Positions 20,541 through 34,401 of a stretch of 64,000 nucleotides of DNA are shown here, piece after piece. The stretch is from positions 62,001 to 126,000 of the forward strand of contig JAFUXA010000002.1 in the NCBI GenBank assembly GCA_017470985.1, read 5' to 3'. The stretch comes from Lachnospiraceae bacterium (GTDB taxonomy: Bacteria > Bacillota > Clostridia > Lachnospirales > Lachnospiraceae). Position numbers and translations under genes: made by a program. A model generated the notes under the pieces. The model did no database searches, was not told where the DNA came from, and saw only the letters and a list, made by a program, of their open reading frames with translations. Numbering within the stretch: the stretch's first letter is position 1; each line of letters opens with the position of its first letter.

Positions 20541-21608
20541 ATGGGTGGAGAATTAAGTAGAAATTTGCTGGTTGTAGATGATAATGATATGAATCGTATG
20601 GTCTTTATGGCAGCCCTTGCGGATTTGGATGTTGTAGTAGATGAAGCATCATCCGGTGCGCAATGTATTGATATGGCTTGTGATAAATATTATGACATGA
20701 TATTTATGGATATTATGATGCCTGAGATGAATGGTATTGAAACATATAACAGGTTGAAAGCCAATTCTGATAATAAATGTATGGAATCACCGGTAGTTGC
20801 TCTGACTGCAGATGACAGCATGGATATGCGAAAGCAGATATCTGAGGCCGGATTTGCAGATTTTCTTGGAAAGCCAGTGTTTTTTGATGATATATGTGGT
20901 GTTATGAGAAAACATATTCCGGGGATAGATGATATTTTGCCACCTGTGATAAATGAGTCTGAATCTGCCGGGGAGGAATTGGATTTAGAGAATCAGGTTG
21001 ATGATATAATTCTTCCGGATGTTGATGGTTTTGACTGGAAGCTGGCTGAGACACATTTTCAAAGTCGTAAGGTACTGTGGGAGTTTGTCAGAAACTTTCA
21101 TAAGACATATAAATCATGGTTGGCAAAGATTGACAGAACATACCGTGACATTGACGAAGGGGATGCAGATTCCATTGATGCATATAGAATAGAGGTGCAT
21201 GCTTTAAAAAGTAACGCGGCTTTATTTGGCAATATGATGTTATCAGATATGAATAAGCAGTTGGAGGATGCTGCCGGAGCGGGAGATATAGAATTTATTA
21301 GAAGTATGCATTCGGTTATGATGGATGCCTGTGACAGATATATGCAGTCTCTGTCTATATATTTTACAGAGGGTGACAAGGAATTGATGACAGACAGAGG
21401 ATGGATATTTTCTATGTTATCTATGTTGAAAATGGCGTTAGATGAGTTGGATTATGACAAGGCTGATGGAATTATGGAGGATATTATGTCTTATTCTTAT
21501 GAGGATTCATTGGCCCGGGATATAAATGAATTGGATATTCTGGTTTCTAATCTGGAAAATGCTGCTGCAGTAACTAGAATAGAGGATTTACTGTCACATC
21601 TTGAGTGA
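20541..21608 (+). CDS. Response regulator with REC and Hpt domains
   Basis: The 355-residue protein starts with a receiver domain (about 8-125) with phospho-acceptor Asp57 in MDIMMPEMNG, the LTAD switch residue and Lys of GKPV. An Hpt domain (about 170-270) has His220 in EVHALKSNAALFG. There is no output domain, so it passes phosphate rather than binding DNA. Such proteins usually work with hybrid histidine kinases, none of which is in the window. The downstream GGDEF gene, 64 bases away, may be in the same pathway. Confidence 0.9.
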   Translation: MGGELSRNLLVVDDNDMNRMVFMAALADLDVVVDEASSGAQCIDMACDKYYDMIFMDIMMPEMNGIETYNRLKANSDNKCMESPVVALTADDSMDMRKQISEAGFADFLGKPVFFDDICGVMRKHIPGIDDILPPVINESESAGEELDLENQVDDIILPDVDGFDWKLAETHFQSRKVLWEFVRNFHKTYKSWLAKIDRTYRDIDEGDADSIDAYRIEVHALKSNAALFGNMMLSDMNKQLEDAAGAGDIEFIRSMHSVMMDACDRYMQSLSIYFTEGDKELMTDRGWIFSMLSMLKMALDELDYDKADGIMEDIMSYSYEDSLARDINELDILVSNLENAAAVTRIEDLLSHLE

Positions 21609-21672: not shown

Positions 21673-23148
21673 ATGAGTGTAGTATCATTGGCATTGAGTA
21701 ATTATATAATGGTTGCTGAGCTTTTGGGATTGTGGGGTATGCTGGCATCCAATGTCTTTTTAAATAAAAGAACAATCAAGGTTACTCGTGTTGTGATTAT
21801 CTTGATATTTGTAGAGGCAATATGTTGGGCTGTGGAGAGGTATACCAGAGAGATTGGATATCTCACTTATACCAGAATTATTCTGGCGCCGACTATTTAT
21901 TTGCTACATGCCATAATCATGCTTGGAATAATTGAGATGGCAGGTTTTGCTGATAAGCACAGATTTCTATTATATTTGCCGATTCTTATAAGTGCACCTA
22001 TTTTATATACATCTCAGCAGACACATATTATATATTATTTTAACGAAAATAATTTATATGTGGCGGCAGATAATCTTATGAGATATTATCCATATTTCCT
22101 GTTTTTGTTTTATGTTATCGTATTTGTTGGTACTTTTACTATTCGTTATGCTTATTATGGTACATCAGAGAGAAGAAGTATCCTGATAAGTATTATTGCG
22201 GCAACCATCGGAGTAATAGCTCATCTGATTTTGGATATAGATGTGGATTACAGTACTTTGTTTGCATCTCTTCTTTTGATTTATTATCTGTCACTTTATG
22301 TATTAACAGCCAAGGAAGATACGCTTACACATCTGCTAAATCGTCAATGCTATTATGCTGATATGGAAAAGCGAAAGGATATGATTACAGCGATTGCATC
22401 TGTGGATATGAATGATTTGAAGAAAATCAATGATTATCAGGGACATGATGCAGGTGACAAGGCTCTTGCTACAGTTGCAGAATGTTTTATTAGAAATCGT
22501 ATCAAGAATAAGAGAGTATATCGTGTAGGTGGAGATGAATTTGCAATTTTCTATATGGGACAGAATGAAGAAGAGGTTAAAGCTGATATAGAAAATATGC
22601 GTAAATACATTTCTAGAACACCATATGTATGTGCATTTGGTTATGAGATGGTACATGAATCAGATGTGGAAAGAGCGATTATTACAGCTGACAAGAAAAT
22701 GTATATTAACAAGTCAGTATTGAAGAGAGATAACGAGAAGAAGATAGCTGCCCATAGGGAAGAGACTATTCGCATAATGCATGAGGCCCTTGGCTCAGGT
22801 ATGTGGGGAATGGAATTCGATGAACATGGAAATATTGATGTTGTAAAATGGAGTAAGGAATTCAGGAAGATGATTGGATATAAGGACGAGAAAGATTTTC
22901 CTGATGAGCTTGAGTCCTGGTCTGATCTCTTGCATCCGGATGACAGAGAACGTGTATTGAGAGAATTCTATGATACTATAGCTGATTACAGCGGTAAGAA
23001 GAATTATAATGTGGAATATCGTCTGAAGGTGAAAAGCGGAGAGTGGAGATGGTTCCATGCTATAGGAAGGCTGCTTCGTTCCGATGATGGCAAACCTCTC
23101 TCATATGTTGGCATGTTTGTTGATATAAGTGACAAGAAAATGGCTTAA
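21673..23148 (+). CDS. Membrane diguanylate cyclase with C-terminal PAS domain
   Basis: The 491-residue protein has about seven hydrophobic segments (1-215), a GGDEF domain (about 215-345) with an intact GGDEF at residues 286-290, and a PAS_3-type domain (about 365-490) with LHPDDRERV and WRWFHAIGRL. It should make cyclic di-GMP. The order is unusual because sensor PAS domains normally precede GGDEF. Starts at an ATG after AAGGGG. It is followed by the cobalamin riboswitch, which has its own promoter, so co-transcription with the B12 operon is not needed. Confidence 0.88.
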   Translation: MSVVSLALSNYIMVAELLGLWGMLASNVFLNKRTIKVTRVVIILIFVEAICWAVERYTREIGYLTYTRIILAPTIYLLHAIIMLGIIEMAGFADKHRFLLYLPILISAPILYTSQQTHIIYYFNENNLYVAADNLMRYYPYFLFLFYVIVFVGTFTIRYAYYGTSERRSILISIIAATIGVIAHLILDIDVDYSTLFASLLLIYYLSLYVLTAKEDTLTHLLNRQCYYADMEKRKDMITAIASVDMNDLKKINDYQGHDAGDKALATVAECFIRNRIKNKRVYRVGGDEFAIFYMGQNEEEVKADIENMRKYISRTPYVCAFGYEMVHESDVERAIITADKKMYINKSVLKRDNEKKIAAHREETIRIMHEALGSGMWGMEFDEHGNIDVVKWSKEFRKMIGYKDEKDFPDELESWSDLLHPDDRERVLREFYDTIADYSGKKNYNVEYRLKVKSGEWRWFHAIGRLLRSDDGKPLSYVGMFVDISDKKMA

Positions 23149-23176: not shown

Positions 23177-23205
23177 TTGACATATTGAACCTGTTCATAT
23201 AAGAT
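23177..23205 (+). promoter_or_regulatory. Promoter of the cobalamin-responsive operon
   Basis: A perfect TTGACA (23177-23182) is followed after 17 bases by TAAGAT (23200-23205). Transcription near 23212 would place the riboswitch at the very 5' end of the mRNA. Confidence 0.75.
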
Positions 23206-23224
23206 TATTGAGGAAATTTGATAT

Positions 23225-23436
23225 ATATACAAACCTTATGATGTGATTCACTTAATAGGGAATCCGGTTAGAGGCCGGAGCAACAGTCATTACTGTAAGA
23301 GATTGGGAAATTCAATATACCATTGGATTGGTTCTATGAAAACATATTACTGTCTGGATAGATATATCTGAGAAGGTGAACTTCCCGGTGCATAATAAGA
23401 TGCACAGTCTACAAGTCAGGAGACCTGTCATAAGGG
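23225..23436 (+). ncRNA. Cobalamin riboswitch
   Basis: The RNA shows the ordered conserved parts of the cobalamin aptamer: AGGGAATCCGGT at about 23258, GGCCGGAGCAACAG, TCATTACTGTAA, a second TTACTGTC, GAAGGTGAAC and TTCCCGGTG, ending in the B12 box AAGTCAGGAGACCTG (23413-23427). Binding of adenosyl- or methylcobalamin should fold this region and reduce expression of the downstream genes. The variable stems P8-P12 are AT-rich. The likely expression platform is the terminator at 23592. Start and end are approximate to about 15 bases. Confidence 0.93.
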
Positions 23437-23446
23437 AGGAATAGCC

Positions 23447-23536
23447 TTGCTTGGACAATGGAGCAGACGATACCGCGTATTGATTGACCTGTTATATTCT
23501 ATATTATTCTATGGTTGTAATGATGAATTGAACTAA
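23447..23536 (+). CDS. Possible 29-residue leader ORF inside the riboswitch leader
   Basis: A TTG at 23447 follows GGGAGGA with 7 bases of spacing and opens a frame of 29 sense codons ending in TAA at 23534-23536. The peptide begins with basic residues (QWSRRYR) and continues with a hydrophobic stretch (VLIDLLYSILFYG). It lies between the B12 box and the terminator stem, so ribosomes on it could influence the expression platform. The strong ribosome site is the main evidence; the coding nature is unproven and it may simply be part of the RNA switch. Confidence 0.35.
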   Translation: MLGQWSRRYRVLIDLLYSILFYGCNDELN

Positions 23537-23591
23537 AGTGGATTTATCAATATATCAGGTTGGATTTTTGCGCTGAAATATAATTTTAAGT

Positions 23592-23626
23592 ATCCTGTTT
23601 TGCAATAAGCAAGACGGGATTTTTTT
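23592..23626 (+). terminator. Riboswitch expression-platform terminator
   Basis: ATCCTGTTTTGC pairs with GCAAGACGGGAT across a 5-base loop and is followed by seven T residues. It ends 13 bases before the start codon of the first operon gene, which argues for transcriptional control by the upstream riboswitch rather than a simple gene end. Confidence 0.9.
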
Positions 23627-23638
23627 ATTAAGTGGAAG

Positions 23639-24514
23639 ATGAATATGCTGGACAAGATTAGAGATTTCATTAGAGAAAAAGGAAATATCAAGAAGCTGAT
23701 GGTAGGAATTATCATAGTGGTTTCAGCTGTGGTAATTATTGCAAATATTTCTATTGAGCCTGCAAATCAGGCATCGGAAGTATCTGTATCTGCTTCTAGT
23801 GTTAAAAGTGATGGAAGCGACAGCTCAAAGGACAAAGGTCAGAATTCGAATTCAGAGGATGAATTGGGACAGGATTCTAATAAGGCCGATGAATCCAAGG
23901 CGGGTGAATCTGAAGATAAAACTGATAAATCCAAGGATAAGCAGGATAAATCCAAGAATCAGGATGTACAGCTTCAAACAGATAATCAGGGTAATAAAGC
24001 TGCAGAAACAGGAACTGGCAGTGGAAGTAGTCAGTCAACAGAAAATTCAGGCGGGACAGGCTCCCAGCGGAATACTCAATCGAATACAACTATAGCGGAA
24101 CCAAAGCCCAAGGTGGAGGAGAAGGTTCCAGTCAGTATTAATTGTACAATAACAATTGATTGTTCTTCCATAAGCGGAACAGGAGCTTTGACTGCTGCGG
24201 GGAATCCTCAGCTTGAGAGCTATGCTGCCAATCCTACTATTTTATCTGTAAATATGAATGTGTCAGATACCAGCGGTGATGGCAAGGTTGGAGTGGACGA
24301 GGCTTTAAAGCAGGCATGTGATGCATATGGCATACAATATGAGTTTAAGAGTTCATCCTATGTCAGTGGAATCAATTATTTATATGAATTTAATGCAGGT
24401 CCTAACAGTGGATGGATGTACAATGTAAATACTATCCATCCAAATAGAGGTTGCAATTCATATTACCTGAAAGGCTCGGAAAATGTGTTATGGTACTACG
24501 TGATAACTTATTAG
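23639..24514 (+). CDS. Membrane-anchored DUF4430 (transcobalamin C-terminal-like) protein
   Basis: The 291-residue protein has an N-terminal membrane anchor (about 20-40) without a lipobox, a long Ser/Asp/Lys/Gly-rich linker (about 45-155) that reaches out through the wall, and a C-terminal DUF4430 domain (about 160-291) with VDEALKQACDAYGIQYEF, YLYEFNAGPNSGWMYNVN and an aromatic end. This domain is related to the beta domain of eukaryotic transcobalamin and intrinsic factor. First gene after the riboswitch and overlapping ecfT, it is inferred to hand cobalamin to the ECF transporter. Two ATGs two codons apart (23639, 23645) are possible starts. Confidence 0.85.
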   Translation: MNMLDKIRDFIREKGNIKKLMVGIIIVVSAVVIIANISIEPANQASEVSVSASSVKSDGSDSSKDKGQNSNSEDELGQDSNKADESKAGESEDKTDKSKDKQDKSKNQDVQLQTDNQGNKAAETGTGSGSSQSTENSGGTGSQRNTQSNTTIAEPKPKVEEKVPVSINCTITIDCSSISGTGALTAAGNPQLESYAANPTILSVNMNVSDTSGDGKVGVDEALKQACDAYGIQYEFKSSSYVSGINYLYEFNAGPNSGWMYNVNTIHPNRGCNSYYLKGSENVLWYYVITY

Positions 24515-25374
24515 AAAAGCGAGGACTGGGATTTATACATCCCGCATGTGCCTTTATATATCTGGTGCTGGCGCTGATTCTCACCATGTGTACCATGAAT
24601 CCAATGCTTATTATGATGTCTCTTATGGCAGGTATTTCATATGAGATTCATATTATGGGACTTTCTCGATTTAGAAGATACATACCCTGGCTGGTTTTAA
24701 TATTTATCATAACCACCTTGGGCAATATGGTTATATCTCATAATGGTGCCCATGTACTATTTCGATTAAATGATAATCGTGTAACCCTTGAAGCCGGGCT
24801 GTATGGCGCGGTTTTCGGATTGATGTTTGCAGCAGCATTTCTCTGGTGCGATATTACACAACGCATTATTGCCGGAGAGAAAATCACTTACATGTTTGGA
24901 AGTATTGCACCGAATATGGGGCTTATTATCTCAATGACCCTTCATTATATTCCAATGCTTCGAAAGAGACTTGAGGTGGTTCATGCTGCTCAGGTATCCA
25001 TGGGAAGAGGAGATTACAAAAATAGATGGGACAGAGCCAAGCAGTGGGGCAAGGAATTCTCCATAGTAATAAGCTGGTCTTTGGAAAATTCCATCGATAC
25101 ATCCGGAGTTATGTCCACCATGGGGTATGGTACAGGCAAGAGAACTAATTATTCGAATTATAGATTTAAAAGCGCAGATGGGCTGTTTTTATTTATAGCG
25201 CTGGCTTTGGCAATTCCTGCTTTTATAGTAGTGTTGTCTGTTAGATTCAAGGTGTATTATTATCCCACTTTTGGAGCTATGTGCTCATGGAAACAGATGG
25301 CAGTGGCAAGTGTGGGATATTTGATTTATATGTTTATTCCATTTGTTGCAGAGAAATTCTTTAAGTGGCATTAG
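24490..25374 (+). CDS. ECF transporter transmembrane component EcfT (CbiQ family)
   Basis: The ATG at 24490 is preferred over an in-frame TTG at 24451 that has no properly spaced ribosome site. The 294-residue protein has about six membrane segments and a cytoplasmic helix region with the coupling motifs (A/S)xGRGDY-like QVSMGRGDYKNR, and later TMGYGTGKRTNYSNY. In ECF transporters EcfT couples ATP hydrolysis by EcfA to toppling of the S component. It overlaps the DUF4430 gene by 25 bases, showing translational coupling. Confidence 0.9.
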   Translation: MVLRDNLLEKRGLGFIHPACAFIYLVLALILTMCTMNPMLIMMSLMAGISYEIHIMGLSRFRRYIPWLVLIFIITTLGNMVISHNGAHVLFRLNDNRVTLEAGLYGAVFGLMFAAAFLWCDITQRIIAGEKITYMFGSIAPNMGLIISMTLHYIPMLRKRLEVVHAAQVSMGRGDYKNRWDRAKQWGKEFSIVISWSLENSIDTSGVMSTMGYGTGKRTNYSNYRFKSADGLFLFIALALAIPAFIVVLSVRFKVYYYPTFGAMCSWKQMAVASVGYLIYMFIPFVAEKFFKWH

Positions 25375-25431
25375 CAGTCTATATATTGGAATAATCATTT
25401 GTATTTTGACATCAGTGAAATGAGGTTATAG

Positions 25432-27225
25432 GTGGCTTTAATTAGATTTGAAAATGTTAATTTCACATATCCTGGAGCTGAGAACAAAGCTCTGGACAAT
25501 ATTAATATAGAGATAAATGATGGGGATTTTGTTCTCATCTGTGGACCTAGTGGTTGCGGTAAGACAACTCTTATTAAGCAGTTACTGCCTGAAATATGTC
25601 CCTATGGTCATAGAGAAGGTCGAATAGTCTATTATGGTTTGGCCCATAATCCTGATGTATATGATGGCCAGAATAAGGGCTGCGATTTAGATGAGTTATC
25701 TCCTAGAGATTTGGCTAGAACATTTGGTTTTGTAGGGCAGAATCCTCAGAATCAGATGGTGACAGATAAGGTGTGGCATGAGCTGGCTTTTGGCATGGAA
25801 AATATTGGTACCAGCCAGGAGATTATGGAGCGAAGAATTGCGGAAATTTGTGAATTCTTTGGTATGCAAAGCTGGTTGAACAAGGATGTGGCATCTCTAT
25901 CTGGTGGTGAGATGCAGATGGTACATCTGGCAGCCGTTATGGTTATGGAACCTAGAGTGCTGATTTTGGATGAGCCGACAGGGCAGCTTGATCCTCTTGC
26001 TGCCAGAAATTTCCTGGATATGCTGGCTCGAATTAATCAGGAGTTGGGAACTACCATTATATTGGTGGAGCATCATCTGGAGGAAGCTTATGCAATGGCG
26101 GACATGGTTGTTGCCATGGATGAGGCTTCTGTGAAATGTGTAGGAAATCCAAGAGATGTGGCTGGTGAGCTGGGATTTCGAGCTGGTCTTCCGTCAGCTT
26201 TGATAATAGCAAAATCAGTGTTGGACGGGGCAGGTGAGAAGATGCCTGTAAATCTCATTGATGATCTGCCATTAAATGTGGCTGAGGGTCAGAAATGGTT
26301 GCGGAGATTATTTCATGAGAGGACTTCTCGTAGTACCCATGAAATGGTTGCTCATACTGCAGACAGACAGGATGATGTATCAATAGACCAGATTCAGACA
26401 TGGGATGTTGTATTGAAGACCCAGGAATTGTGCTTTGCATATGATGAGGGCAAGGCTGTATTACAGGATTGTAGCTTTTCCATTTTCCGAGGGGAGATAT
26501 TTACTCTACTTGGCGGTAATGGAACAGGAAAGAGCACTTTGTTGAAATTACTGTCAACTACATTAAAGCCTGCTTATGGAACCATTGAAGTTCTAGGCAG
26601 GAAGCTGGGAGGATTCAAGGATTCAATTCAGTTAAAACGCAAGGGTGACAAGACTCCTCTGGGATATGAGGGGATGGTATTGTTGCCACAGGATCCTATG
26701 GCTTTGTTTACAGAAATAACTGTATGGGATGAGCTGAAGGAGGTTTTGGATGGTTTGCCTTATTCCTTTGATGAAAAGAATGGTTTGATTGCCGGCATGC
26801 TTGAACAAATCAGGTTGACCGGTTATGAGAAGAGACATCCTTATGATTTGAGTGGAGGGCAACAGCAGATGCTTGCCATTGGAAAGCTGCTTTTGTTGAA
26901 GCCACGAATTATATTAATGGATGAACCTACCAAGGGGCTGGATTATGACCGTAAGATTGCATTGGGACATATGATAGCTGAGCTTGCATCAGAAGGAATC
27001 AGTTTTCTCATTGTAAGTCATGATATAGAATTTGCAGCAAGATTTGCCCACAGATGTGGATTGATGCATGATGGTAGAATTGTGGCGGTGGATAGAGCTA
27101 AGAGCTTCTTCGCAGGGAACAGCTTCTTCACAACAGCTGCCAATAGAATGGCCAGAAGATATTTTCCGGAGGCCATATTGCCTGAGGAGGTGATTGAGCT
27201 TTGCAAAAAAGAACTGGTAGAGTGA
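25432..27225 (+). CDS. Fused double ATPase of an ECF transporter (EcfA-EcfA')
   Basis: The 597-residue protein holds two ABC ATPases in one chain. The first (about 3-245) has Walker A GPSGCGKT at 38-45, LSGGEMQ, and Walker B LILDEPTGQLDP; the second (about 318-560) has GGNGTGKST at 361-369, LSGGQQQ and LMDEPTKGLD. Both sites look complete. In most ECF systems EcfA and EcfA' are separate genes; fusion is a known variant in single-substrate (group I) transporters. The start is a GTG after GAGG. The gene overlaps the S-component gene by 25 bases. Confidence 0.92.
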   Translation: MALIRFENVNFTYPGAENKALDNINIEINDGDFVLICGPSGCGKTTLIKQLLPEICPYGHREGRIVYYGLAHNPDVYDGQNKGCDLDELSPRDLARTFGFVGQNPQNQMVTDKVWHELAFGMENIGTSQEIMERRIAEICEFFGMQSWLNKDVASLSGGEMQMVHLAAVMVMEPRVLILDEPTGQLDPLAARNFLDMLARINQELGTTIILVEHHLEEAYAMADMVVAMDEASVKCVGNPRDVAGELGFRAGLPSALIIAKSVLDGAGEKMPVNLIDDLPLNVAEGQKWLRRLFHERTSRSTHEMVAHTADRQDDVSIDQIQTWDVVLKTQELCFAYDEGKAVLQDCSFSIFRGEIFTLLGGNGTGKSTLLKLLSTTLKPAYGTIEVLGRKLGGFKDSIQLKRKGDKTPLGYEGMVLLPQDPMALFTEITVWDELKEVLDGLPYSFDEKNGLIAGMLEQIRLTGYEKRHPYDLSGGQQQMLAIGKLLLLKPRIILMDEPTKGLDYDRKIALGHMIAELASEGISFLIVSHDIEFAARFAHRCGLMHDGRIVAVDRAKSFFAGNSFFTTAANRMARRYFPEAILPEEVIELCKKELVE

Positions 27226-27959
27226 AAGCTCGAGAGGTAGTAATGATTGCAATTATGTCTGCTATTACAGTTCTGGGAAATATGCTATCTTTTCCTGTAC
27301 TTCCAATTCAGGCTGGTACTGGAATGGTAATTATATCAGGAATTGCATTTGGCCCACTGGCTGGAGTGCTTATAGGAATGTTATCCAGATTTATTGTAAA
27401 TTTCTTTACAGGTCAGGGTGTATGGACCATATGGCAGATGTGCACCTGGGGACTGCTGGGAGCAATCTCTGGAGCAGTATTTTCCAAGATAGATATAGAA
27501 GCTCCCAGGTCTAGGGATTTCAAGGTTCTTCTAGGACCTGTCAGTGCTGTGGCTTTCATGGAGGTTGTGGCATATGTGTCTTATCTTCTATGGCCGGGAG
27601 GAGAGGAGACTTTCCTGGGATGGAGATTATATATATTTGGATTCATAGGTCTCATTCTTGGGGCGCTGATTCAGAGAAAGAGAATGCCGGCAGATGATAT
27701 TACTTTGGCAGTATTTACCTTTATGGTGGTATTTATCATATATGGTGGAATTATGAATCTGGGAACTATGTTTATGAGCGTCATGAGCGCCGCAGACATG
27801 TCCTGGAATGCTCTGAGAGCTTTGTATGTAACAGGAGCTCCATTTGATTTGTGGCATGCATTTCGTGCTGCAGTATTCGTTTTTATATTTGGCAATAATA
27901 TGCTTGTTAAACTTGAGCGGGTGAAAATTAAATATGGTTTTTATCGCGTTCACAGATGA
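27201..27959 (+). CDS. ECF transporter S component, predicted cobalamin-specific
   Basis: The 252-residue protein has about six membrane segments with the S-component pattern near its start (MIAIMSAITVLGNMLSFPVLPI, then SGIAFGPLAGVLIGMLSRF). The substrate is inferred from context only: a cobalamin riboswitch governs the operon and the flanking genes carry transcobalamin-like domains. CbrT-type S components are known cobalamin carriers. The start is a TTG after GAGGTGATT inside the end of the ATPase gene. A small hairpin (ATTCC with GGAAT, about 27994-28018) lies in the gap before the next gene. Confidence 0.85.
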   Translation: MQKRTGRVKAREVVMIAIMSAITVLGNMLSFPVLPIQAGTGMVIISGIAFGPLAGVLIGMLSRFIVNFFTGQGVWTIWQMCTWGLLGAISGAVFSKIDIEAPRSRDFKVLLGPVSAVAFMEVVAYVSYLLWPGGEETFLGWRLYIFGFIGLILGALIQRKRMPADDITLAVFTFMVVFIIYGGIMNLGTMFMSVMSAADMSWNALRALYVTGAPFDLWHAFRAAVFVFIFGNNMLVKLERVKIKYGFYRVHR

Positions 27960-28081
27960 TGGTGGAAATATATTTTGTAAATATAGAAATCATTCCGCAA
28001 GCGTTATGCTTTAGGAATATGGATTAATCAGTATATATTTAAATTTATAATATATAAAACAATAAGAAAGGATGGAAGAAA

Positions 28082-30322
28082 ATGTTTAATCTTAAGACAA
28101 TTTCTAAAAAGGTTGTTGCCTTTATTGGAGCAACAACAATGGCTGTTACTCTCTTTGCCGGAAATGTATATTCTGGCGCAAGTGTAGTAAATGCAGATGC
28201 AAGTGCAGTTGTTGTAAATGTAACATATACTGCGCAATATGATGGTGCCTTCAAAGATGTGAAGGTAAATGTACCTGTATCTTCTGATACAGCAGAAAGC
28301 TATGGATATGATGATGCATTGGCATCAGGAACTGGAGTATCAATGCTTGATGTATTAGTTCAGATGCACAAGGATATATTCCCAGAGTATACTGCAGCTA
28401 ATAAGGATGATTACCTGGCTGTTGGCGCAGGCGGATGGATTACCAATGCTTTCGCCAAGAATGGAAGCGGAGTTAGCTATTATAAAAACGGCGCTTCGGT
28501 TTATTCTTTAGATGTAGCTGTTGAGGAAGGGAATGTAGTTGATGCATTCTATTATCAGGATGTAACAGGATATTCAGATGCTTATACAACATTTGGCAAT
28601 GTGACTTTAGATGGAGGATATCTGTCAGGAGAAATCACAATGGCTGGATATGACAGTAACTGGAATATTGTTCAGTCCCCACTTGCCAATGTAGAACTTG
28701 GATGGTTAAATCCTGAGACACTTAAGATTACACCTGCAGGTAGCTGGTCTCCTGTTAAGACAGCTGCAGATGGTACATTCTCAGTTGAGGTTCCAAATAC
28801 ATCAGTAAACTATTTACTTACAGTTGTTGATAATACAGTTGGTACTACACCACTTATCAAAACTCTTTGTGTTGACTATCCTGCAACACCAAAGGTTGTA
28901 ACTGCTTCTAAGACATTGGATCAGGAGTTGGCAGTATATGCTTTGGCTGGTAAGTATCTGGCAAATAATAATAATAAGAAAATCACATATGGTGATGGTG
29001 ATTCTAAGGAAGGCTATCTCGTAGGTTTAGGACGTGCTGGATATCCTGTAGCGGATGGTTTATATGCAGGTTATTATGAGAGCGTGAAGACATATCTTGC
29101 AGCACATAATAACAGATTTTCATCTCCTACAGAGTGTGCCAAGGTTGTTGGTGCCCTCAATGCAATTGGATATGATCCAACAAATGTAGGTGGCGTAGAT
29201 ATTACTGCCCAGTTAAATGATTCTGAAAATGTATTAGGTGATTTTTCAATTGCTTATATGCTTCTTGCAATTGAGTCAAAGAATTATAATGTGGCTGCAA
29301 AAGATGCATATATCAAGACTTTGGTTGATGATGCATATGCTTCTGGCGGCTGGGGATGGAATGGAGTTTCAGCAGATGTTGATACAACAGGTGTTGTATT
29401 GGCAGCCCTTGCTCCATATTACAATACTAATTCATCAGTGAAGGCTGTTGTTGACAATGCGGTAGCAGCTCTTTCTAAGATGCAGGCAGCAGATGGCGCT
29501 TTCGCTTCAGGAATGGACGAGAATTCCAATACAACAGCAATGGTAGTATTTGGATTATCTGAACTTGGAATCAATGCAGATACAGATGCCAGATTTGTAA
29601 AGAATGGTATTTCAGCAGTTGATGCTTTATGTTCATTTGCAGTAGATGGCGGTGGATTTGGATGGACAGATAATGTAGATGTAAATGATTATGCTACTAA
29701 TCAGTCATATTATGCTCTCGGTTCATATTTCAGAATGAACTCAGAGATGAACAGATTATTTGACATGACTGCAGAGTCTACAATTACAGCATTGGATGGC
29801 TCTGTTGCATTAGCTGATCCAGCGGGGGTTCTTCCTGCTTCTTCATTTATTGAGGCTGAAGAGTTGAAATCAGGAGCTGTATATGACAATGCCAAGGCAT
29901 TGGTAGATGCACAGTATAGCAATGTGTCCAACACAGCTGTATTTGAAATCAATCTTTTCGATGCAGCCCTTAATCAGCTTCATCAGTTAAATGGTAAAGT
30001 ATATGTAGGTGTTACACTTCCATTTACAGTATCAGCAGGACATAAGCTTGTAGCTTTCCGTGTAGAAGGAAATAATCTCATTCCATGTGATGTGGAATAT
30101 GATGCAGAGTCCAATGTGGCTATGATTTCAACAGATCACTTCTCTACATTTGTTTTTGCTGAGGTTCCTGAAGAAGCTGTTGTTGCTACACCTGCTCAGA
30201 CTGTAACTACAATTGCTGCCAAGGCTCCTAAGACAGGAGATGATTATGTATTATGGATCAGCTTGATTTTAGTTGCTATTGGTTGTAGTGTAATCTTAGT
30301 TGGTAAGAAGAAACAGAAGTAG
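28082..30322 (+). CDS. Sortase-anchored DUF4430 plus alpha-barrel protein, candidate surface cobalamin binder
   Basis: The 746-residue protein has a signal peptide (cleavage near VVNADA, residue 40), a DUF4430-like region (about 42-165, MLDVLVQMHKDIF and AVGAGGWITNAFA), a beta-rich linker (to about 275), and a helical repeat region (about 280-560) with GGWGW at 422-426 and GGGFGW near 522, as in prenyltransferase/squalene-cyclase-like alpha barrels. The end has APKTGD (715-720), a membrane helix and KKKQK, a sorting signal. Intrinsic factor and transcobalamin combine the same two folds in the opposite order. The start follows AAGGATGGAAG. It is inferred to capture cobalamin at the wall. Confidence 0.83.
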   Translation: MFNLKTISKKVVAFIGATTMAVTLFAGNVYSGASVVNADASAVVVNVTYTAQYDGAFKDVKVNVPVSSDTAESYGYDDALASGTGVSMLDVLVQMHKDIFPEYTAANKDDYLAVGAGGWITNAFAKNGSGVSYYKNGASVYSLDVAVEEGNVVDAFYYQDVTGYSDAYTTFGNVTLDGGYLSGEITMAGYDSNWNIVQSPLANVELGWLNPETLKITPAGSWSPVKTAADGTFSVEVPNTSVNYLLTVVDNTVGTTPLIKTLCVDYPATPKVVTASKTLDQELAVYALAGKYLANNNNKKITYGDGDSKEGYLVGLGRAGYPVADGLYAGYYESVKTYLAAHNNRFSSPTECAKVVGALNAIGYDPTNVGGVDITAQLNDSENVLGDFSIAYMLLAIESKNYNVAAKDAYIKTLVDDAYASGGWGWNGVSADVDTTGVVLAALAPYYNTNSSVKAVVDNAVAALSKMQAADGAFASGMDENSNTTAMVVFGLSELGINADTDARFVKNGISAVDALCSFAVDGGGFGWTDNVDVNDYATNQSYYALGSYFRMNSEMNRLFDMTAESTITALDGSVALADPAGVLPASSFIEAEELKSGAVYDNAKALVDAQYSNVSNTAVFEINLFDAALNQLHQLNGKVYVGVTLPFTVSAGHKLVAFRVEGNNLIPCDVEYDAESNVAMISTDHFSTFVFAEVPEEAVVATPAQTVTTIAAKAPKTGDDYVLWISLILVAIGCSVILVGKKKQK

Positions 30323-30410
30323 TATTATTTATAATCGAGATACAATTTATAAGAAATGTATATAATAAGCCTATGTTTTCTTGACATAGATTTGTTAAAT
30401 GATTAGGATT

Positions 30411-30441
30411 AATGTGTGTGGATTTTCCACACACATTTTTT
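30411..30441 (+). terminator. Intrinsic terminator after the cobalamin operon
   Basis: AATGTGTGTGGA pairs perfectly with TCCACACACATT, followed by a run of six T. It closes the cobalamin uptake operon. A TTGACA-N17-TAGGAT promoter-like pair (30381-30409) overlaps its 5' side and could serve apt. Confidence 0.9.
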
Positions 30442-30530
30442 CTGTAGAGATATAAGTGTAAAATATCAATATATTGATTTATAATATCTCATATATGGAT
30501 TATGAAATTGCAGATGGGAGAATAGATACC

Positions 30531-31055
30531 ATGAAAAAAGTAGAAGATTACGTAAGAACGATTCCGGATTTTCCAGAACCAGGAATTATGTTTAGAGACA
30601 TAACAACAGTATTGCAGGATGCAGATGGTTTACAGCTTGCAATTGATGAGATGACCAAGCTTCTTGATGGAGTTGACTGTGATGTTATAGCAGGTGCAGA
30701 ATCCAGAGGATTCATCTTCGGTACAGCTATTGCTTATAATACTCATAAGCCATTTGTACTTGTAAGAAAGGCTGGTAAGTTGCCGGGAGAGACTGTTTCC
30801 AAAACATATGATTTGGAATATGGCACAGCTACAATCGAGATGCACAAGGATTCAATTAAGCCGGGACAGAAGGTTGTATTGGTTGATGACTTAATTGCAA
30901 CTGGTGGTACAATCGAGGCAGCAGCTCAGTTAGTAGAAGAGCTTGGGGGCGAGGTTGTGAAGATTGTATTCCTTATGGAGCTTGAAGGTCTCAAGGGAAG
31001 AGAGAGACTTGCCAAGTATGATGTTGCTTCAGTTGTAAAATATCCTGGTAAATAA
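30531..31055 (+). CDS. apt: Adenine phosphoribosyltransferase
   Basis: The ATG at 30531 gives a 174-residue protein, the normal family length; an upstream in-frame ATG at 30474 would add 19 residues with no family match. FPEPGIMFRDIT, AGAESRGFIFG and the PRPP loop VVLVDDLIATGGT are all present. It salvages adenine to AMP using PRPP in the cytosol. It lies between two strong terminators and so is transcribed alone. Confidence 0.95.
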   Translation: MKKVEDYVRTIPDFPEPGIMFRDITTVLQDADGLQLAIDEMTKLLDGVDCDVIAGAESRGFIFGTAIAYNTHKPFVLVRKAGKLPGETVSKTYDLEYGTATIEMHKDSIKPGQKVVLVDDLIATGGTIEAAAQLVEELGGEVVKIVFLMELEGLKGRERLAKYDVASVVKYPGK

Positions 31056-31096
31056 TTGAGGGATTGAGGCTGACCACAGATAATTTAAGATAAAAT

Positions 31097-31132
31097 AAAT
31101 CAGCATTCACAGGATTTGTGGATGCTGATTTT
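31097..31132. terminator. Bidirectional intrinsic terminator
   Basis: AATCAGCAT pairs with ATGCTGATT and CACA with TGTG across a short loop, with T-rich flanks on both strands. It separates convergent apt and HAD phosphatase genes. Confidence 0.85.
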
Positions 31133-31196
31133 GCTTATAAATATATTTTTAAAAACTTCTCAATATTATCTTATGGTAACTGTTTCAGGATTTATG

Positions 31197-31865
31197 TTAC
31201 TTATTAGAACTAATTAGTTTATCAACGATTCTTGGTACATCACTAAGACCATTTGCCACATCATATAAGAGGGGCTCTAAGTCTGGAGTAGGACCACTTA
31301 GATCAGGCACCATTACAGTTATACATCCGGCTGAGGAAGCGGAGCGAATACCATTGGGGGCGTCCTCGAGAGCCAGACAGTTCTCAGGCTTCAGGCCTAA
31401 TTCCTGGCAGGCATATTGGTATACATCAGGATGTGGTTTGCCTTTTTTTACCATATGAGCGCTGATTACCATGTCAAATGAATCCTGCAGACCTACCTGA
31501 GTAAGTCTTGGGATTGCACGGGTCATATCTGTTGCTGTAACTACTGCAGTTTTGAGATTATGAGACTTGAGATAGTCCAATAATTCTGAGACGCCAGGCT
31601 TGGCTTCTACTCCCTCTGCTTTGCTGATTTCCAGCATTATTGCAGTTGAGCGTTTATGAATCTCTTCATAAGGCACATCCATGCCGTATCGCGTTTGCCA
31701 AAGCTTCAGGGCATCAGTACTGTTTAGACTTCTCTGAAGCAAAGCATCATCCCTGGTGAAATCTGTATATCCGAATTCGTGAAAGGCTTGAGGCCAGGAA
31801 CGGTTATAATATTTCTCTGTATCTGTTATAGTTCCATCCATATCAAATAAGACTGCTTCTAACAT
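31197..31865 (-). CDS. HAD-superfamily hydrolase, beta-phosphoglucomutase-like
   Basis: The 222-residue protein has the HAD motif I DMDGTITDTE with both aspartates, motif II TATD, Lys of VKKGKPHPD and motif IV ALEDAPNGIRSA. The helical cap after motif I marks subfamily IA (beta-phosphoglucomutase or sugar-phosphate phosphatase). The exact substrate cannot be told. It is convergent with apt and divergent from the flagellin methylase gene, sharing a 75-base upstream region with it. Confidence 0.9.
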   Translation of the reverse strand: MLEAVLFDMDGTITDTEKYYNRSWPQAFHEFGYTDFTRDDALLQRSLNSTDALKLWQTRYGMDVPYEEIHKRSTAIMLEISKAEGVEAKPGVSELLDYLKSHNLKTAVVTATDMTRAIPRLTQVGLQDSFDMVISAHMVKKGKPHPDVYQYACQELGLKPENCLALEDAPNGIRSASSAGCITVMVPDLSGPTPDLEPLLYDVANGLSDVPRIVDKLISSNK

Positions 31866-31940
31866 ATATATTCTCCTGATTTTGTGTAGTTTTTTGTATG
31901 TTGCTTTCTAATAGAAAGCTAACTGTAGTATAATAAATCC

Positions 31941-33128
31941 ATGAAAGATTATGCAATATCATTTTACAAAAACTTCAAATGTCTGGGGGGCGAATGTCCT
32001 AGAACATGTTGTCAGGGATGGAAGATTCTAGTGGATGACAAAACCTATAATCGTGTATTCCACTATGATGGTTTAGATTCTTTTTTGCCAGAGATTCAAG
32101 AGAGCATGACTACCAGATATTTCTTTAGTCTTACGAGAAAACCGGAACATGTCATGCGTCAAAATTTATCAGGAAAATGTGTCTGTCTGACACCGGATGG
32201 ATTATGCAAGATGCATAAATTACTTAGATTTAATGTAATGCCTGCAGTATGTATAAATTATCCTAGAAGATCTTATGATCTGGGAAATATTTCTGAAACC
32301 ACACTGGAACTGGCTTGCCCGGAAGCTGCGCGATTGCTGTTAGAGCACCAGGGGCCCCTTCAGATGGAGGAGATGAAACTGGAGGAACCTTATGAGGTGA
32401 ACTGGATTATAGGTAACGAGGATGAGGCATTTCTTAAATTTCTTATGGATTTGAGAACAGCTTTGTCTGAGCAGATATATGACAAGCCTGATTTGAATAA
32501 GGATATTTTGAATCAGATTTATAAGATGTCATTTGATATACACCATGAATTATTGCGGGATAAATTATCAGAGGCAAATAATATTTTACAGAGCTTTCAG
32601 CTTACAGATAAGGAGGCTGCTGATGATGCTATAGATTATATGTTTTATCCTATGGAGATTATGGACAAGGTGATTGCATATAATATATGTCCGCAGGTGA
32701 CAGATTGTAATCATAAGGATTTGCGGAAGGTGATTCGTTATTATTTCAAATGTTTTGATAAGCTGACAGATTCAGAGGCTAGAGAATTCTATTTGCGAAA
32801 TTATGATGTAATGAGTCAGGAGATAGAAGGACTGGAAGAGAAATATAAGTCCTATTATATATATTATCTACATGAGATGCTTATGAGTGCTTATGAAGAT
32901 TATCATATTCTCCGCGTGATACTTCTGGGAAATATGTATATGCAGATATATAGAGTACTGGATATGGTGGCATGGCTTATGGCCAAGGAGCAGGGCAAGA
33001 AATATGACATGGCTTCTCAGTCTGAACTGCTGTCTAATCTGGAGAGACGTATGCGTCATAATCTGTCAATTACAGATGGAATAATGGAGAGAATTAGGAA
33101 AGAGTTTTTGAACGGAAATGAAAGTTGA
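31941..33128 (+). CDS. Flagellin lysine-N-methylase, FliB family
   Basis: The 395-residue protein has an N-terminal cysteine cluster (FKCLGGECPRTCCQGW), then CVCLTPDGLCKMH and AVCINYPR, the pattern of FliB proteins that may hold an iron-sulfur centre. FliB methylates surface lysines of flagellin. The start at 31941 has a weak upstream site. No flagellin or flagellar structural gene lies nearby, so it is a stand-alone member, but several chemotaxis genes in the window support a motile cell. Confidence 0.82.
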   Translation: MKDYAISFYKNFKCLGGECPRTCCQGWKILVDDKTYNRVFHYDGLDSFLPEIQESMTTRYFFSLTRKPEHVMRQNLSGKCVCLTPDGLCKMHKLLRFNVMPAVCINYPRRSYDLGNISETTLELACPEAARLLLEHQGPLQMEEMKLEEPYEVNWIIGNEDEAFLKFLMDLRTALSEQIYDKPDLNKDILNQIYKMSFDIHHELLRDKLSEANNILQSFQLTDKEAADDAIDYMFYPMEIMDKVIAYNICPQVTDCNHKDLRKVIRYYFKCFDKLTDSEAREFYLRNYDVMSQEIEGLEEKYKSYYIYYLHEMLMSAYEDYHILRVILLGNMYMQIYRVLDMVAWLMAKEQGKKYDMASQSELLSNLERRMRHNLSITDGIMERIRKEFLNGNES

Positions 33129-33215
33129 TGCATTTGATGGAGTTTCATTTGAGTATTAAGAAAACAATAGTTAATTGCGAATTTTAAGACAATTTAACAA
33201 AATCTCTCAAAGTGT

Positions 33216-33244
33216 TTGACAACTTAACGGGCAGATGTTATAGT
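33216..33244 (+). promoter_or_regulatory. Strong sigma-A promoter of the amidase leader
   Basis: A perfect TTGACA (33216-33221) and TATAGT (33239-33244) are separated by exactly 17 bases. Transcription near 33251 leaves about 440 nt before the amidase start codon. Confidence 0.88.
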
Positions 33245-33251
33245 TTACTTA

Positions 33252-33600
33252 GAAATAAGGAGAAAGGAGAAAACAAAGAAAGGCGGTACGGACCAATGGG
33301 GTAAGTGCTTTCTGACAGAGAGTTATATGTCAGGCCGAATCTAAGGATGGATAACCAGTGATGAATCATACAAAAGGAAATCGGTGGAGTGATTGATGGC
33401 AATTATGCATATAAATCACCAACCCAAGATCACTGAAGGAAAACGAAAGACGAGGGTTCGGAGAAGAAAATATAAAAGACGAGGAAGAAAAATTGAATAC
33501 TGTAACATGTAATTAGGCGTCTGGCGGTTAACATAAGTTGAATCGTTTCAGGCGTCTAATTCTGTATGCAAATATTTACTATTGAAAAATTGGTGGTGAT
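33252..33600 (+). ncRNA. Long structured 5' leader, possibly c-di-AMP (ydaO/yuaA)-like
   Basis: A leader of about 440 nt follows a strong promoter and has no coding frame. The part at about 33282-33365 reads GGTACGGACCAATGGGGTAA, later CAGGCCGAATCT and GGATAACC, which resembles but does not fully match the ydaO/yuaA cyclic di-AMP aptamer (whose copies read GGTACGGA, GGGGTTAAT, CCGAATC and GCTAAC). The downstream gene is a cell-wall amidase, the usual target of that riboswitch. A 13-bp stem with 25-base loop lies at 33511-33561 (arms 33511-33523 and 33549-33561), but no T run follows. Ligand is uncertain. Confidence 0.45.
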
Positions 33601-33693
33601 GACCTGGTCGTGGAAAATTGACTGGAATTAACACATGTTATAAAATGTTTTACATCAAGATTATTTGAGAGAATTGGGGATTATAAGTGCTTC

Positions 33694-34401
33694 ATGGAAA
33701 AGAAGAAAACCAGAAGAAAATTAAGTAAAAGACAGAAGAAGCAATTATTATTGGAAGTTATAATACTATTTCTGGCAACTGTAGGTGCATTTACCATAAT
33801 AATTGCAGCCGGATCGAAGATTGCAGATGCTATAGGTCATAAGAAGTACAAGGTGGTGGAAGAGCAACCAGAGCTTGATGTGGAATTATTGCAGATAAAT
33901 AATTATTCTAGACCGGGAACTGCAATGGATAAGGTGAATAATATAGTAATTCATTATACTGCAAATCCAGGAACATCAGCTATACAGAACAGAGATTATT
34001 TCAATGGGTTGGCGGATTCTCATGTGACTTCAGCCAGCAGTCATTTCATTATTGGATTAGATGGCGAGATTGTGCAATGCATACCAACAAATGAGATTGC
34101 ATATGCAAATTATCCGAGAAATAATGATACAGTTACTATTGAGTGTTGTCATATGGATGACAGTGGTGAATTCAATGATGCCACTTATGAATCACTTATT
34201 AAGCTTACAGCTTATCTAATGGGTAAATTCTCCCTGACTACCGATGATGTGGTTAGACATTATGATATTACAGTTGAAGCTGGAATAACTCCAAAGGATT
34301 GTCCGAAGTATTTTGTTGACAATGATGACAAGTGGGAGAAATTCAAGGAAGATTTAGAGGATTATATTGATAGATATGGAGTAGTGCAGTCTCAGGAATA
34401 G
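33694..34401 (+). CDS. Membrane-anchored N-acetylmuramoyl-L-alanine amidase (Amidase_2)
   Basis: The 235-residue protein has a basic cytoplasmic start (KKKTRRKLSKRQKK), one membrane anchor (about 20-42) and an Amidase_2 domain (about 85-225) with zinc ligands in VIHYTA and VVRHYD and a third in the KDCPKYF segment. It cuts the amide bond between muramic acid and the stem peptide outside the membrane. The ribosome site is poor (GGGGA 13 bases upstream), fitting regulation by the leader. It is 10 bases before the PAP2 gene. Confidence 0.9.
   Translation: MEKKKTRRKLSKRQKKQLLLEVIILFLATVGAFTIIIAAGSKIADAIGHKKYKVVEEQPELDVELLQINNYSRPGTAMDKVNNIVIHYTANPGTSAIQNRDYFNGLADSHVTSASSHFIIGLDGEIVQCIPTNEIAYANYPRNNDTVTIECCHMDDSGEFNDATYESLIKLTAYLMGKFSLTTDDVVRHYDITVEAGITPKDCPKYFVDNDDKWEKFKEDLEDYIDRYGVVQSQE

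Follow-up and report, generated by a model that had tools for sequence, protein, structure and literature searches.

A characterised relative of the system described here is ECF-CbrT of Lactobacillus delbrueckii (PDB 6FNP), an energy-coupling factor (ECF) transporter that imports cobalamin and cobinamide at the expense of ATP (PMC5997447, eLife). Published lists of B12 transporters include the set CbrUVT (PMC8123684, PMC6593275). When gut genomes were surveyed in 2019, nearly half of the auxotroph variants proved to have a known B12 transporter, and identifying the B12 transport systems of numerous gut genomes was described as an open problem (PMC6593275). Surface relays are documented in Gram-positive bacteria for haem, as in Shr-Shp-HtsABC of Streptococcus pyogenes (PMC2266757), and the DUF4430 domain is reported at the C-terminus of TCN proteins (PMC4350170). 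Here we describe an operon from a Lachnospiraceae bacterium that joins a cobalamin riboswitch and a CbrT-like ECF transporter to two predicted surface proteins with transcobalamin-like domains. It lies in a stretch of 64,000 nucleotides (nt), hereafter the window (contig C9, positions 62001-126000), of a genome of 2.38 Mb that is 88.8% complete.

The operon, in our view, is likely to serve corrinoid uptake and to provide an outer capture layer made of transcobalamin-type domains. Its features are as follows.

23177-30437, plus strand: whole operon, comprising a promoter-like site, riboswitch, terminator, five genes and terminator
23177-23205, plus strand: sigma-70-like promoter, TTGACA-17-TAAGAT (consensus scan, 10/12)
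23222-23446, plus strand: cobalamin riboswitch aptamer RF00174 (cmscan, 76.3 bits, E 5.1e-17, full length)
23460-23473, plus strand: predicted 5' arm of an antiterminator, pairing with the 5' arm of the terminator (constrained fold)
23592-23627, plus strand: intrinsic terminator within the expression platform of the riboswitch (terminator scan, 12-pair stem and T run)
23639-24514, plus strand: P0001, membrane-tethered DUF4430 (transcobalamin beta-type) protein (Pfam DUF4430)
24451-25374, plus strand: P0002, EcfT transmembrane energiser (homology to operon genes of relatives)
25432-27225, plus strand: P0003, fused EcfA-EcfA' ATPase with two nucleotide-binding domains (PF00005 on two stretches, TIGR04520/TIGR04521)
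27201-27959, plus strand: P0004, CbrT-like S component (PF12822/PF07155), overlapping the ATPase gene by 25 bases
28082-30322, plus strand: P0005, wall-anchored putative capture protein (sequence, profile and model comparison)
28196-28591, plus strand: divergent DUF4430-type domain of P0005, residues 39-170 (hhalign of alignments A3 and A2)
28919-29797, plus strand: alpha/alpha barrel of P0005, residues 280-572 (fold kin: transcobalamin alpha domain, terpene cyclases)
30224-30319, plus strand: sorting signal APKTGD, hydrophobic stretch and KKKQK, an LPXTG-like variant (sequence)
30411-30437, plus strand: intrinsic terminator at the operon end (terminator scan, 12 pairs and T run)

An earlier, sequence-only reading of the window had named this set of genes and elements, and the set stands with one correction, which concerns the DUF4430 domain of P0005 and its invisibility to Pfam. 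The cobalamin riboswitch is full length, exceeds the gathering score of its Rfam covariance model (76.3 against 31.5 bits) and is the sole cobalamin riboswitch of the genome at E <= 0.001. The terminator proposed ahead of the first gene consists of a hairpin (23592-23620) followed by T's, with a predicted folding energy of -17.0 kcal/mol for 52 nt, and the first ATG follows at 23639. A related locus (L035) shares the antiterminator-arm segment (23460-23473), and another (L004) shares the initial seven bases of it. The leader is a candidate antiterminator/terminator switch. A consensus-like promoter does occur where it had been proposed, but the call rests on its location 5' of the riboswitch, because such sites are no more frequent in the region than expected by shuffling (29 found versus 29.9).

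Read from its TTG start, P0002 shares 64 bases with P0001; an in-frame ATG at 24490 is the likelier start and would shorten this first overlap to 25 bases. The overlaps at the first and third junctions, the latter also of 25 bases, suggest translational coupling there. Together with the gaps at the second junction (57 bases) and the fourth (122 bases), they make it likely that the whole unit is one transcript.

The ECF genes tie the operon to a known corrinoid importer. The best PDB sequence match of P0004 is chain A of 6FNP (E 1e-7, residues 7-97), the only other being 4HZU_S (E 9e-4), and on this match we assign P0004 to the CbrT family of S components. P0003 carries two Walker A motifs, two LSGG(E/Q) signatures and two Walker B motifs, consistent with the proposed fusion of EcfA and EcfA'. 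P0002 itself has no match in a Pfam scan of the operon proteins, but four of seven related open reading frames (ORFs) scanned from other operons match PF02361 CbiQ, three of them over the cut-off; two close kin of the window among the seven also lack a CbiQ match. The operon thus encodes, like ECF-CbrT, an EcfT and two EcfA-type ATPases, with EcfT recognised by homology to these relatives. EcfA, EcfA' and the S component are fused in single ORFs of 809-983 amino acids (aa) at nine other loci (L045-L049, L052-L054 and L089), an unusual ECF architecture.

Two proteins are predicted to act outside the membrane. P0001 has an N-terminal hydrophobic anchor, a linker rich in Ser, Lys and Asp, and a DUF4430 domain at residues 219-287 that scores 53.6 bits; no other protein of the genome matches Pfam DUF4430. 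The N-terminus shows one hydrophobic stretch and no N-terminal Cys, in keeping with the proposed membrane tether. P0005 runs from a signal-like N-terminus through a DUF4430-like domain, a linker domain, an alpha/alpha barrel and a C-terminal region to a sorting signal. The sortase anchor is supported by the APKTG motif, hydrophobic stretch and KKKQK tail and by four sortase matches in the genome. The DUF4430-like domain of P0005 has no Pfam DUF4430 match and its model is of low confidence, but a profile-profile comparison of alignments A3 and A2 recovers it (probability 82%, E 1.1e-5, 70 columns). An iterated hidden Markov model (HMM) likewise reaches DUF4430 proteins, once one DUF4430 segment had joined the seed. 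A3 comprised seven N-terminal P0005-type segments out of 22 reached by the iterated HMM, and A2 comprised 32 of 35 DUF4430 segments, the longer ones of L036, L038 and L054 being absent. L003, near-identical to L035, was omitted from A2 as well as from the barrel alignment A1 (19 of 20 segments).

Both domain types of transcobalamin, intrinsic factor and haptocorrin, a DUF4430 beta domain and, in the P0005 model, an alpha/alpha barrel, have counterparts here, though the relation that had been proposed is borne out only in part. Neither the Rfam match nor the comparison of folds, each of which could have spoken against the sequence-only reading, does so. Searched against the PDB, the DUF4430 profile matches just transcobalamin-2 (E 0.084) and transcobalamin-1 (E 0.33) below E = 1, a weak resemblance. 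Transcobalamin, haptocorrin and intrinsic factor are among the matches of the barrel model, but so are terpene cyclases and glycoside hydrolases, and the rows of the three carriers are tied with the enzyme rows or just behind them; a Foldseek search puts rat transcobalamin first (E 1.5e-3). At E < 1, three of 19 barrels from bacteria match PF01122, the family of eukaryotic cobalamin-binding proteins, the best of them at 0.0041; the window barrel is not among them, and none of ten barrels rescanned one by one with this family matched. Since P0005 has its beta-like domain ahead of the barrel and P0001 has no barrel, the barrel-then-beta order of the animal carriers does not occur in a single chain of the window, and we do not classify the window protein as a transcobalamin; its binding of corrinoid is putative. 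In the sampled loci 40 ORFs bear the barrel; 25 of them fuse it to DUF4430, five of these (for example in L051) in the simple barrel-then-DUF4430 order. Very large surface-type proteins of 1900-3400 aa also contain the barrel (L043:438-10586, in reversed coordinates, and in L087, L052 and L053), and most of them hold DUF4430-type domains too.

The operon recurs. A counterpart (L003), in a Lachnospiraceae bin recovered from the rumen of water deer, has a gene set equal to that of the window and a P0005 that is 80% identical; G139, whose ORFs are the same and whose S component is 95% identical, is probably this genome again. We surveyed 200 genomes of the family, representing 199 genera. DUF4430 was matched in 95 of them, the riboswitch in 164, P0004 in 64 and P0005 in 40; 43 genomes have an S component near DUF4430 and 38 have the barrel. 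Counted as one row per place, 44 of 66 S component places have a DUF4430 match within 15 kilobases (kb). These are 44 of the 48 strongest S matches versus none of the 18 weakest, a split that was chosen after the table had been viewed. Of the 70 riboswitches in 40 of the 43 genomes (G000, G014 and G189 were left out), 35 have a DUF4430 match no farther than 15 kb away, and 33 of these stand upstream of it on the same strand. A rough calculation with two DUF4430 genes, 30 kb each and about 3 Mb puts the chance expectation at about 1-2% per riboswitch. By genome, this linkage is seen in 27 of the 40, a riboswitch only elsewhere in five and no riboswitch match in eight. The linkage of DUF4430 genes with cobalamin riboswitches and ECF genes, a point on which the sequence-only reading could be checked, is thus supported.

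Some relatives are reduced to essentials. Among the matches listed, which make the count a lower bound, eight places have a DUF4430 match 300-650 nt below the riboswitch, and seven of these are minimal operons of a riboswitch, a DUF4430 protein and a solitary CbrT-like S component; the exception (L084) encodes a 1777-aa protein. Two further places with this spacing, in G070 and G106, head full operons. CbrT is the sole PDB match (E 6.5e-9) of the one minimal-operon S component tested (L078). A riboswitch exceeds the threshold in 18 of 20 loci analysed in detail (all but L039 and L052), a figure that is no estimate of frequency because these loci were picked partly for visible linkage. At the scale of the phylum, 97 of 348 genomes hold a match to the barrel profile at E <= 0.001, in some cases a weak one. 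In seven of ten barrel loci taken from this phylum survey, a cobalamin riboswitch precedes the barrel match on its own strand; L087 and L093 have no riboswitch, and L089 has one on the opposite strand only.

Two further observations were made on individual loci. The operons of L045, L046, L051, L053 and L054 are headed by riboswitches of 32-41 bits, little above the gathering score, which are possibly a divergent variant. In L036, two ORFs separate the barrel gene from the ECF/DUF4430 genes (L036:2432-5606, minus strand), one with a sub-threshold DUF58 match and the other with a transglutaminase-core match, an unexpected insertion into a B12 gene set; L038 has a similar ORF pattern.

The genome encodes a MetH-like enzyme (TIGR02082), a fragment of which scores below the model cut-off, and a radical SAM protein of a B12-binding family. 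Among the de novo and salvage genes the search covered CbiD, which has no match in this 88.8% complete genome. The same pattern holds across the family, in comparisons uncorrected for kinship. CbiD is found in 8 of 38 barrel genomes versus 111 of 162 others (Fisher 1.1e-7; nearly all are separate genera), after dropping G022 and G117, whose P0005 matches lie outside the barrel; with both included, the counts are 8 of 40 versus 111 of 160. It is likewise found in 9 of 43 genomes with an S component near DUF4430 versus 110 of 157 others, and in 34 of 95 genomes with any DUF4430 match versus 85 of 105 without.

We propose the following route. When cobalamin is scarce, the leader would antiterminate and the operon would be transcribed. 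Anchored to the wall, P0005 would capture corrinoid outside the membrane through its DUF4430-like beta domain and alpha/alpha barrel, and the membrane-tethered P0001 could bind the corrinoid or guide it to the CbrT-like S component. The EcfT/EcfA-A' motor would then drive its import by the S component, and the imported corrinoid may serve the MetH-like enzyme. That the operon serves corrinoid uptake is very probable. That P0001 and P0005 bind corrinoid is probable, and a stepwise hand-off from wall to membrane is only somewhat favoured.

One rival reading concerns P0005. While the ECF part imports corrinoid, P0005 might be an adhesin, or a binder of proteins or glycans that carry B12, and merely be co-regulated. 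Alpha/alpha barrels occur widely among proteins with no corrinoid ligand, homologues of P0005 reach 1400-3400 aa with further regions of adhesin-like character, and a 122-base gap precedes its gene. We nevertheless regard this as unlikely. Of 74 P0005 rows in the survey, 65 have a DUF4430 match at most 15 kb away; once 16 rows that match N- or C-terminal parts only are set aside, so do all 58 that cover the barrel or extend into it. The barrel ORF is moreover the first long same-strand ORF below the riboswitch in 9 of the 20 detailed loci (L040, L041, L045-L049, L053 and L054), and the fusion of barrel and DUF4430 in 25 of 40 ORFs also speaks against this rival. A purely enzymatic barrel of the terpene-cyclase, polysaccharide-lyase or GH88/GH105 kind, with DUF4430 domains as structural spacers, would account for the enzyme rows in the structure search. 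It is very improbable, given the linkage to cobalamin riboswitches and CbrT-like S components, the enrichment in genomes without CbiD, the position of the animal carriers level with or close behind the enzymes, and the first place of rat transcobalamin in the Foldseek search.

The substrate could also be related to B12 and yet differ from it. It might be cobinamide or a further corrinoid, alpha-ribazole, or the base of a lower ligand; cobalamin riboswitches also control transporters of cobalt and of precursors. CbrT itself takes cobinamide (PMC5997447). We think such a substrate improbable, slightly more so than an adhesin-like P0005, for the S component is closest to CbrT, CbiD, the one de novo or salvage gene searched, has no match in the genome, and the outer domains resemble cobalamin carriers.

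Corrinoid uptake through an outer capture layer therefore remains our preferred reading. If correct, it would give Gram-positive bacteria a B12 capture layer and suggest how those that depend on the vitamin may catch it and pass it inward. Proteins akin to the human B12 carriers would then sit on the surfaces of bacteria that require the same vitamin, and DUF4430, still of 'unknown function' in Pfam, would have an explanation. The operon type is a concrete candidate for the unassigned B12 transport of gut genomes. A broader idea is that B12 auxotrophs in many genera of the phylum bear surface homologues of transcobalamin under cobalamin riboswitches, the DUF4430 beta domain and alpha/alpha barrel being fused or encoded by two genes. 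These would clamp corrinoids at the wall and relay them to a membrane DUF4430 protein and a CbrT-type S component, the animal architecture sharing ancestry with them and being no animal invention. This we offer tentatively, as a little less likely than its opposite.

Directly upstream of the operon is a diguanylate cyclase with GGDEF and PAS domains (21673-23148), preceded by a response regulator (20541-21608), and neither gives any sign of belonging to the operon. Downstream, the region 30474-34401 encodes a phosphoribosyltransferase, a HAD hydrolase (minus strand) and an N-acetylmuramoyl-L-alanine amidase; the ORF at 31941-33128 has no Pfam match at E 1e-6.

Our literature searches found neither a wall-anchored barrel protein of this type nor a link between a bacterial operon and the transcobalamin architecture. 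The claim that no example of the gene set had been characterised thus holds for the wall-anchored barrel/DUF4430 layer, but the transporter part has a characterised counterpart in ECF-CbrT (PMC5997447), and a lipoprotein for a cobalamin ECF transporter has been annotated. The gene rtpR encodes a ribonucleotide reductase. For Lacticaseibacillus rhamnosus, a proteomics report has an entry 'additional lipoprotein component of putative cobalamin ECF transporter'; it also lists a DUF4430 protein adjoining rtpR (PMC9963975). The likeness to the window lies in an accessory lipoprotein that takes its name from a predicted cobalamin ECF transporter; it is known by name alone, the excerpted text of that report contains no wall-anchored barrel protein, and from this text the two entries could not be confirmed as the same protein.

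BtuG/BtuB of Bacteroides also combines surface capture with transfer, by means of a beta-propeller surface lipoprotein and a TonB receptor of the outer membrane. The proteins of this pair and of Shr-Shp-HtsABC are unrelated to those of the window, and ligands or envelopes differ, BtuG/BtuB residing on an outer membrane. The Pfam families shown for the five operon proteins include no BtuG/BtuB-type domains, and the pair is named as an analogy only. The Shr-Shp-HtsABC relay offers a similar analogy within Gram-positive bacteria, as a ligand is captured at the surface and transferred to a membrane importer (PMC2266757); the proposed operon would do so with B12.

The animal transcobalamin, intrinsic factor and haptocorrin share with the bacterial set an alpha/alpha barrel and a DUF4430-type beta domain. 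The bacterial proteins differ in being anchored to wall or membrane, in being often split over two genes or repeated, and, in P0005, in placing the beta-like domain ahead of the barrel; their sequence kinship to the animal carriers is weak and their binding putative. ECF-CbrT is among the closest known systems, through the kinship of its S component with P0004 and with that of the L078 minimal operon, through EcfT and through two ATPase domains. In contrast to CbrT, whose ECF module is shared, the window's operon encodes a module of its own, fuses the two ATPases (several relatives fuse the S component too), and adds a riboswitch and transcobalamin-like outer proteins.

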